The position numbers and the translations under genes were made by a program. Under the pieces are notes generated by a model. The model was not told where the DNA came from and ran no database searches. It was given only the letters and a program-made list of their open reading frames with translations. Shown here piece after piece: positions 39,237-42,200 of a stretch of DNA of 64,000 nucleotides. Source of the DNA: Sphaerolaimus hirsutus (Eukaryota; Nematoda; Chromadorea; Monhysterida; Sphaerolaimidae). The stretch lies in assembly GCA_964036195.1 (NCBI GenBank), contig OZ038457.1:17511147-17575146 (forward strand), given 5' to 3'. The stretch's first letter is position 1. Each line of letters starts with the position of its first letter.

Positions 39237-42200
39237 ATGGCTGATACCACTGGCAAGGTATTTTTTCGCGTCATTTTTGCCCTTTCCGCATGCGCATGTT
39301 TCGCTGGCCCTGTACTGGTGCACAAGTAACAAAAGCAGTAAAAGGCGCCATGGTGTGGCGTACTTTGGCGCTCTCAAATGGCGTTTTTTCCATCACTAAT
39401 CATGTGTATACTTGTTGTTTTTGGAGGGGGAGTTCGCAGGGGTTCAATATCTAAGTTTTTTCAGGCTTTAGGAGAAAAATGGCTGGATAGATGTGTAGAT
39501 AGCTGGAGCGTTTGGGATAACCCCTCTTCCAACCTCCCATACTGGACCCCTGCAGTACCCATGAAGACCCAGTGCTCAAGTACTTAAGCACCGGGTAAAC
39601 TTGTGAACTGGGTTCTAGCCGTTTCGGTATCGCAGGTGATCGAGTGCCGCGCGGCGGTGGCCTGGTCGGCCAAGTCGCCGCTCAGCATCGAGACCATTCA
39701 GGTGGCCCCGCCTAAGGCTGGCGAGGTCCGCATCAAGGTATGTTTTCTGGGCAACGGTCAACACACTAGTTCACAAAGGCATCAAATGTCGACTGGTTCC
39801 GATACCAATTCAACGATTGCTGATGGGTGCATTATTGCATACGGTCCGTCGGCTCGGTCAGCAAGCTTTGAATTGGTATGTGAACCAGTTGACATTTTAC
39901 GTCGTAGTCGACTACTGTGTGTACGTGTAGAGTCAAAGAGCCTTCTAAGCGTGACAACCCGAGTTGCCAATCAGCAAACTGCAGATCACTCACACGGGCG
40001 TGTGCCACACCGACTCGTACACGCTGGACGGGCACGACCCCGAGGGCAAGTTCCCGTCCGTGCTGGGCCACGAGGGCGCCGGCATAGTGGAGAGTGTCGG
40101 TGAAGGCGTCACTTCCGTGAAGCCTGGTGCGTTTTTGTGGATGCTGATTGTGTTGTTGTGTAGAGCACGTGAAGTGGAAATATTGCAGGCGACCATGTGA
40201 TCCCGTGCTACATTCCACAATGTCGGAATTGCAAGTTTTGCAAGTCGTCCAAGACGAACTTGTGTTCCACTATCAGGTACGAAATCTGATTGGCCGTTTT
40301 TTTCGGGCAACCCGATTCATTTCATACAAATACAATACACTAGTCACAATACAATTTTCTACCTAGTCCTAATGAGCACCCCAATCAATTATAATGTATA
40401 AATAGTTGCCCCAACTGTAGTGCATAATTTCGACCCAATTGTCGGTCTAAGCTCAAAGACAAAGACACAAAAATTCCCCAGTTCTCAAATGGTTGTTTTT
40501 GCACAATCCCTAATCACACTAGCTGTTCATGTCCACAGGATGACACAAGGCGTCGGCGAGATGCCCGACGGAACGACACGGTTCAAATGCAACGGCAAAG
40601 ACCTGTTTCACTTCATGGGCACGAGCACCTTTTCGCAGTACACCGTCGTGGCCGAGATGTCCGTGGCGAAGGTGCCAAATTCAAAATACTCGCACCAGTG
40701 CCCGAAATTATTTTTTACCGATTTCCCACGTAGGTAAGCGACACGGCTGCATTAGACAAGGTGTGTCTGCTCGGCTGCGGCATCAGCACCGGCTATGGCG
40801 CCGCACTTAATACGGCCAAGGTAAATGTTTGTTTGTGTGTTTTTACATGGCAATTAATCCTCGCTCACTGGTTCCGAGATTATTTAAGCTTTGTACACCT
40901 TTCTGAATTGTGTTTACATTTCTTGTGACAGACAGCAATTGTCCGACTTGTAGATGCGAATCACTTTTTTTCAATTTTATTTGTGACGTGTTTTTTTTAA
41001 TTGTGGCACTAGTGTTATTAACCGCAAAGAGCACTAGATACATTCTGGTTTCGTAAAATAAACATCAGAATCCGTCCATCAATTGACATTTGTTGATGGT
41101 TAGGGGATTTTCGGGGAGTCCCCGATGTATTCTAGTGACAGACTGACCCCAACGCAGGTAGAGAGTGGCAGCACGGTGGCCGTGTGGGGTCTGGGCGCCG
41201 TGGGGCTCGCGGTCATCATGGGCTGCAAGGAGGCCGGCGCCAGCCGCATCATCGGCGTCGACCTGAACAAGGACAAATTTGAGACGGGTTTGTATGGATT
41301 TTAGGCCTTATTTTGCTAAATGATGTGCTAAATTTGACGTGTTTTCCAGCGAAGAAGTTCGGCGCGACCGAGTGCGTCAATCCCAAGGACCACGACAAAC
41401 CTATCCAGAACGTGCTGGTCGATATGACCGATGGGGGACTCGATTACACTTTCGAGTGTGTTGGCAACGTGGCCACTATGGTAGGTTTTGGTTAAGGTGT
41501 CAACTTTCCGGTTTCTGGCCGCTTAATTTTTTACCGTTTTCCGGCTCATTTTCCATTTTCGGGCAATTTCCCCCCCGCGTTGTTTGCTGTTTTCGAGCAA
41601 ATTTTCTGTTTTTCTGCCTCATTTACCATTTTCCGTCAAATTCTGGTTTCCGTTTTCCGCCATTTTTGCCGTTGACCATTTACCAGCACGTGCGAATTTT
41701 TTCCGCTTTCTTTTCCGGCAAATGAAAAAAAATTTGTTGACAATTCTGGTGCGTCGCGGACGTTCCCTCTATTTACCCCCCCCCCACAGCGCGCGGCCCT
41801 GGAGTCGTGCCACAAAGGCTGGGGCGTGTCGTGCATCATCGGCGTGGCCGGCGCCGGCCAGGTGCCAATCCCAGACCCTGTAAAATGCCCTGTAAATTGT
41901 CAAATGTCATGCAAAGTGTCAAAAGTCATGTAAAATGCCCTGCAAAATGGCAAACGTGTTACATGACTTTTGACACTTTGCATGACACATGACATTTGAC
42001 AGGGTATTTTACAGGGTCCGGGACTGCCCCCAGGAGATCAGCACCCGCCCCTTCCAACTGGTCACCGGTCGCAAGTGGATCGGATCAGCCTTCGGCGGGT
42101 GGAAGAGCCGCGATCAAGTGCCCCAGCTGGTGCAGAAGTATGAAAGCGGCAAATTGGATGTGGACTCGTTTGTGACGCACCACTTCAAGCTGGATGAAGT

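Follow-up and report, generated by a model that had tools for sequence, protein, structure and literature searches.

The stretch of DNA analyzed here, called the window below, covers 64,000 nucleotides of the genome of the nematode Sphaerolaimus hirsutus (contig OZ038457.1, positions 17,511,147 to 17,575,146). It contains the class III alcohol dehydrogenase gene ADH5, which was rebuilt from the genomic sequence with ten introns, the ninth of which bears a foldback element. The features concerned, including three further copies of the same family, are as follows.

39237..43038, plus strand: ADH5 (class III alcohol dehydrogenase) gene, 11 coding exons, 378 aa, clean translation
41790..41861, plus strand: ADH5 exon 9, 3' end ...GCC GGC CAG
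41859..41861, plus strand: left copy of the target duplication (TSD), CAG, exonic and predicted to remain in the mRNA
41862..42030, plus strand: foldback element, 169 nt, GTGCCAATCCC...GGGACTGCCCC, with asymmetric ends (GTG and GGG, read inward)
41862..41863, plus strand: predicted splice donor GT, from the 5' terminus of the element; the frame test agrees
41862..42033, plus strand: predicted ADH5 intron 9, 172 nt, GT-AG, phase 0, after codon 302 (Gln302); the element plus one TSD copy
42031..42033, plus strand: right TSD copy CAG and predicted 3' acceptor, intronic, removed with the intron
42034..42236, plus strand: ADH5 exon 10, starting GAG ATC
43526..43844, plus strand: family copy between ADH5 and the ABHD17-like gene, 319 nt, CAG/CAG
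44602..44764, minus strand: second copy, in a coding exon of the ABHD17-like gene, with gene-sense CTG at both ends (44599-44601 and 44765-44767)
48269..48545, minus strand: family copy, 277 nt, with unequal flanking triplets CGG/CAG

The spliced ADH5 protein aligns gap-free with class III ADH structures over residues 6-376, so that the ADH flanks are intact and conserved, as an earlier note on this DNA had stated. The other nine introns are ordinary GT-AG introns; introns 3, 5 and 7 (within 40127-41349) are 62 nt each and mutually dissimilar by eye, and intron 2 holds another foldback (39761-39920) with 63-nt arms that are 79% complementary. Intron 9 likewise has a GT donor and an AG acceptor in the genomic sequence. 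No vertebrate ADH gene is known to have an intron at the position of ADH5 codon 302, and the known human ADH intron positions lie on either side of it. Passages of a study of Xenopus ADH genes describe eight introns whose positions are conserved across animal ADHs (PMC4028059), compared with ten in the present gene. No ADH5 paralog without intron 9 was seen in the genome, which shows a single ADH5 locus. Elsewhere in the window, the ABHD17-like gene seems by eye to have a GC-AG intron (CCACAG|GCAAGG, 45270-45289, minus strand), and an inverted repeat with 266-nt arms, 96% complementary and with a 2-nt spacer, occupies 52413-52946.

The foldback nature of the element is evident from its arms (41858-41933 and 41959-42034), which are 87% complementary, and from a DNA fold of -64.6 kcal/mol (z -14.06) that was equaled by 0 of 200 shuffles. 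CCAGG occurs at both borders (41858-41862 and 42030-42034), as reported in the earlier note. The note had also equated the element with ADH5 intron 9 "base for base"; the 11-exon model with its clean 378-aa protein supports this for the predicted borders, but the intron consists of the element plus one TSD copy. The proposed donor CCAG|GTGCCA and CAG acceptor in phase 0 agree with the model, in which the predicted excision restores the frame. Within the element lie a second donor-like site, GTAAAA, and a second acceptor-like site, TTTTACAG. If the inner donor were joined to the outer acceptor, the mRNA would gain 18 nt, or six codons, and stay in frame; the outer donor joined to the inner acceptor would bring in 19 nt and shift the frame. 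RNA folds of eight copies show paired arms, with the TTTTACAG region, and GTAAAA where it is present, in the stem; the hairpin may thus hide these inner splice-like sites.

A dispersed family with a CWG target duplication

The 348-Mb genome (762 contigs) was searched for further copies. Genes met at the loci read, among them a FAT-like cadherin, an ENaC-type channel, a family-2 GPCR and a Cys-loop receptor domain, fit an animal genome. A whole-element search gave 3566 first-look candidates, 40 of which were scored, and a 24-base terminus had 1765 exact matches genome-wide against none for the reversed control. At 2,397 sites in the genome an exact donor-side end adjoins CAG or CTG. Altogether 101 loci were read: L001-L030, picked for their resemblance to the ADH5 copy and mildly biased to CAG because this query has CAG at both ends; L031-L100, which cover 71 of 100 listed terminus matches and were picked by terminus alone; and L101, chosen by transposase. 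Together with the window they yield 103 non-redundant copies with both ends. The two ends of a copy mostly differ. In an earlier tally of 76 copies, 43 paired GTGC at one end with GGGG, read inward, at the other, and three had two GTG ends.

The triplets flanking the 103 copies are CAG/CAG in 36, CTG/CTG in 25, CTG/CAG in nine, CAG/CTG in two and others in 31. Thus 61 copies have matching CAG or CTG at both ends, and 35 of the other 42 have one of these triplets at one end at least. The duplication of the family is therefore the 3-bp CWG, which is also seen at the paralogous empty sites described below. The earlier note had taken CCAGG as the duplicated unit; this does not hold, because G follows the right CAG in only 593 of 1133 genome-wide matches, and a 5-bp duplication was ruled out. 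C precedes the left CAG in 23 of 36 copies. CTG ends are followed by G in 563 of 712 genome-wide matches and in 24 of 25 sample copies, which we read as a target preference (ACCAG/CTGGT) and not as a longer duplication. This preference also resembles a Harbinger3 target site.

Copies in coding exons and the nature of ADH5 intron 9

Many similar copies lie in unrelated genes, and reading frames run on across many of the junctions once the element and one TSD copy are taken out. The element borders then coincide with the exon/intron borders expected from genomic sequence, for which the CTG copies would need a TG acceptor. According to a codon score trained on ADH5 (score of at least 10, margin 4), the GT end lies upstream on the favored gene strand in 21 of the 103 copies and downstream in three (p = 2.8e-4). 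A Pfam scan of the ORFs on either strand gave no match for these three antisense-favored copies (ids 3, 21 and 29).

The Pfam scan points to the same sense-strand orientation. Of the 75 sense ORFs it covered 30, including 20 picked as likely coding, and it took in all 69 antisense ORFs, 59 of which were trimmed to 60 residues per side. A domain was matched across the excised junction in 15 of the 30 sense ORFs: ADH_zinc_N_2 (ADH5), Cyclin_N, ASC, 7tm_2, E1_dh, zf-C2H2_7, Hydrolase_4, Oscp1 (twice), CBS, Neur_chan_LBD, Thioredoxin, Cation_ATPase_C, Peptidase_M14 and CHGN. Ten of these matches are at or above the curated cut-off, Hydrolase_4 (the ABHD17-like copy) just so, and ADH_zinc_N_2, ASC, E1_dh, zf-C2H2_7 and Peptidase_M14 are below it. 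The Peptidase_M14 match is not collinear over the junction, with 52 residues for 26 profile positions, and is therefore no test of the exact junction; those of CBS and ADH_zinc_N_2 extend only about 3 residues upstream of it. Matches beside the junction were found for KH, FAT4/cadherin (two ORFs) and LRR, and 11 of the 30 scanned sense ORFs had no Pfam match. The antisense ORFs gave one GDT1 match, which sits downstream of the junction when counted on the sequence, and one Semialdhyde_dh match at E = 0.03. The names PRKAG, BCKDHA and ABHD17 used for matched loci are presumed gene-level assignments.

The OSCP1 gene (L046) carries two copies, one CTG/CTG and one CAG/CAG (positions 1348 and 2171); the CAG/CAG and CTG/CTG junctions are both gap-free against the profile, over 49 and 39 positions. 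Two copies also seem to be present in a family-2 GPCR-like gene (L017, positions 203 and 1505) and in a FAT-like cadherin gene (L071, positions 1836 and 3149). Coding insertions at CAG are in phase 0 in 12 of 15 cases, against 61 of 141 CAG triplets of the coding background, and those at CTG in 11 of 13, against 108 of 168.

Element-free homologous sites were found in both directions in the loci L005 and L013, whose paralogous exons are about 86% identical in DNA. L013 has a CAG/CAG copy where L005 is uninterrupted, and L005 has a CTG/CTG copy where L013 is uninterrupted; with the elements removed, the alignment is gap-free at both junctions. A nearby ORF of L005 matches Neur_chan_LBD. The L005 copy lies about 12 nt downstream of a likely acceptor and might therefore join the preceding intron in the RNA.

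The family, its CWG duplication, the orientation, the Pfam-supported junctions and the empty sites together argue for an introner in which the element gives the donor and the duplication gives the acceptor. ADH5 intron 9 is thus very probably an introner derived from a non-autonomous, CWG-duplicating PIF/Harbinger MITE, with splicing as the predicted mode of removal. The large dispersed family, the exact borders, the orientation of 21 against three and the paralogous empty sites all favor the introner reading that the earlier note had given this copy. The MITE would have inserted at CAG|G within an ADH5 exon. As the element end starts with GT, the exon would then read CAG|GTGCCA and offer a 5' splice site, and at the other end a C-run directly before the duplicated CAG would serve with it as the 3' splice site. 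Removal of the element with one CAG would restore the original codons exactly, and the long hairpin, which has the inner donor- and acceptor-like sites in its stem, may assist.

Other origins of the locus were weighed against the same evidence. There is a slim chance that the element is unspliced, in which case this copy or allele of ADH5 would be defective, or the insertion would be a variant that is rare or comes from the assembly: read in frame, the element contains a stop, and the element and one TSD copy together are not divisible by 3 in length, so that retention would also shift the frame. The rest of ADH5 is, however, intact and conserved at the sole ADH5 locus found, and the element there differs by 6.4% from the sample consensus and is hence not brand-new. 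An older ADH5 intron into which the element was later inserted, replacing or nearly filling it, is a slimmer prospect still. MITEs often reside in introns, and ADH5 has nine further ones, but no remnant of a host intron is left on either side, exon codons directly adjoin both TSD copies, the same arrangement recurs in unrelated genes, and the L005/L013 pair retains the uninterrupted exon. Least credible is somatic removal at the DNA level, as of the IESs of ciliates, in place of splicing. It would accord with exact excision between short direct repeats and with the tolerance of both CAG and CTG ends, but DNA excision would not call for the GT end to lie upstream, as it does in most coding copies, AG is in excess at the 3' end, and the assembled DNA contains the copies.

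The CTG class and the acceptor

As CTG is duplicated almost as often as CAG, TG would be the 3' end at seven of the 15 junctions that Pfam supports, and AG at eight. The seven comprise six CTG/CTG copies, L062 included after re-reading, and one TTG/CTG copy. CTG/CTG copies lack the GT-AG form, and a rule by which the duplicated CAG is the acceptor therefore leaves seven of 15 junctions unexplained. The earlier proposal, in which both splice sites come from the choice of target together with the terminal sequence, accordingly stands for CAG targets only, and CTG targets leave ...CTG. For the CTG copies, either TG acceptors function or another splice pair serves.

AG seems to be preferred at the acceptor end. 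Genome-wide, CAG and CTG stand at 1295:1102 beside the donor end and at 1133:712 beside the acceptor end (p = 1.7e-6); copies with GTG at both ends could weaken this marginal comparison. Among paired ends on contig C1 up to 27.18 Mb there are 19 CAG/CAG, 18 CTG/CTG, four CTG/CAG and no CAG/CTG copies. In the sample, CAG is on the right only in 15 copies and on the left only in nine; six of the nine have a right-hand CAG displaced by 1-3 bases, which leaves 15 against three (p = 0.0075).

Coding copies depart from the sample consensus by a median of 7.6% if they are CTG/CTG (12 copies, including two TTG/CTG), 8.2% if CAG/CAG (14 copies; p = 0.82 against CTG/CTG) and 10.3% if CAG stands only on the right (eight copies; p = 0.24, again against CTG/CTG). 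These sets were hand-picked as coding, and one CAG/CAG and one right-only copy were dropped by length. The coding CTG/CTG copies are as diverged as the CAG/CAG copies and therefore do not appear newly arrived; the notion that they are young, unpurged insertions is unsupported.

We read these data as insertion at either target, after which copies of both kinds would survive and the acceptor could later be repaired by a T-to-A change. In its full form, which we hold tentatively and somewhat short of an even chance, CAG and CTG targets would both give working introns, through GT-TG splicing or through AG-independent, hairpin-guided excision, and TG would later be repaired to AG; OSCP1 and the PRKAG-, BCKDHA-, ENaC- and ABHD17-like genes would then use GT-TG introns. 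If true, a single T-to-A repair of a 3' TG would amount to a two-step birth of canonical introns. It is unlikely, though less so than the alternatives for ADH5 above, that the coding CTG copies use other splice sites, such as a GC donor GT|GCCA with the internal TTTTACAG acceptor. That pair adds 21 nt (seven codons), in frame and stop-free in the sample consensus, and GC-AG introns exist, the ABHD17-like gene seeming by eye to have one. On the other hand, GT|GCCA is a poor GC donor, the internal AG lies within the hairpin stem in the folds made, and the seven added residues would fall in conserved domains, e.g., Oscp1.

Coding copies exist at several stages, namely with matching CAG, with CTG/CTG and with CTG/CAG. 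How a 3' splice site arises and is repaired is thereby open to direct testing, which bears on the strictness of the spliceosome for AG. U2AF1-like exons, of interest in view of the TG class, were noticed at C14:3032343-3038016, C720:101293-108657 and C16:15183255-15191469; C720 is perhaps a second allele of C14, and C16 resembles a more diverged relative.

Known introners and a proposed PIF/Harbinger link

Introners of Micromonas, Aureococcus, Symbiodinium, Chrysochromulina and others are described, in passages of PMC9860276, as introns of similar sequence scattered over unrelated genes. Some of the families have TSD and TIR, and most leave mRNA length unchanged. In case C of that source, the 5' site is carried by the element and the 3' site is co-opted from the TSD, as is predicted for the family described here. 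In contrast to the introners in those passages, the present family has a 3-bp CWG TSD, a near-perfect long foldback and an animal host, and in many coding-exon copies its TSD gives TG and not AG. The hairpin introners of Amoebophrya, as excerpts of PMC7789003 describe them, have inverted repeats that pair the intron ends, direct repeats of 3-5 nt at the exon/intron borders and many non-canonical ends. The present family shares the paired repeats, the short direct repeats and, as candidates, the non-canonical ends, but is a single sequence family with GT...CWG ends. One end pair, GTG...CCCC next to CWG, is found in most copies, in place of the broad variety of splice motifs of the Amoebophrya type. 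In Fritillaria tunicates, the U2 spliceosome removes introns whose 3' ends are not AG, and introner transposons with weak splice sites are named as a possible source, according to parts of PMC13326754. Fritillaria is likewise an animal host with non-AG 3' ends, which are candidates here; there, most introns genome-wide are non-canonical, whereas here only the ADH5 element family is in question. The one paper found in the open-access literature to pair "introner" with "Harbinger" deals with fungi and lists PIF/Harbinger among the elements in gained introns. The introner logic is known; the animal host, the CWG hairpin source and the unexplained TG class are new. Among animals and land plants, passages of PMC9860276 place introners in only two groups, both animal, and report them as rare in animals; the animal genome studied here has thousands of element ends.

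The NuwaI group of PHIS (PIF/Harbinger) transposons has, in the sections of PMC4482050 that deal with it, a 5'-CWG-3' TSD, TIRs of 12-61 bp that usually start with GGG, and animal hosts. The CWG TSD and the animal host recur in the present family, which is a non-autonomous hairpin of about 170 nt. One of its ends fits the GGG start, and the other, which starts with GTG and carries the predicted splice donor, does not. We infer a CWG-duplicating, NuwaI/Harbinger-like MITE as the source, presumably mobilized by a transposase of that kind; one G-to-T change in an ancestral GGG end could have made the donor. The locus L101, the sole Harbinger-type locus read, has no termini that match the element, and lists of DDE_Tnp_4 positions and element ends on C1, compared by eye, gave no clear pairing. 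Matches to DDE_Tnp_4, a PIF/Harbinger-type transposase domain, number at least 163 in the genome, in a search that also matched one of 14 control genomes. Many of the PIF/Harbinger-type transposase matches, e.g., C2:10037349-10037981, are nearly equal in score, and a recent burst of one family is therefore suggested.
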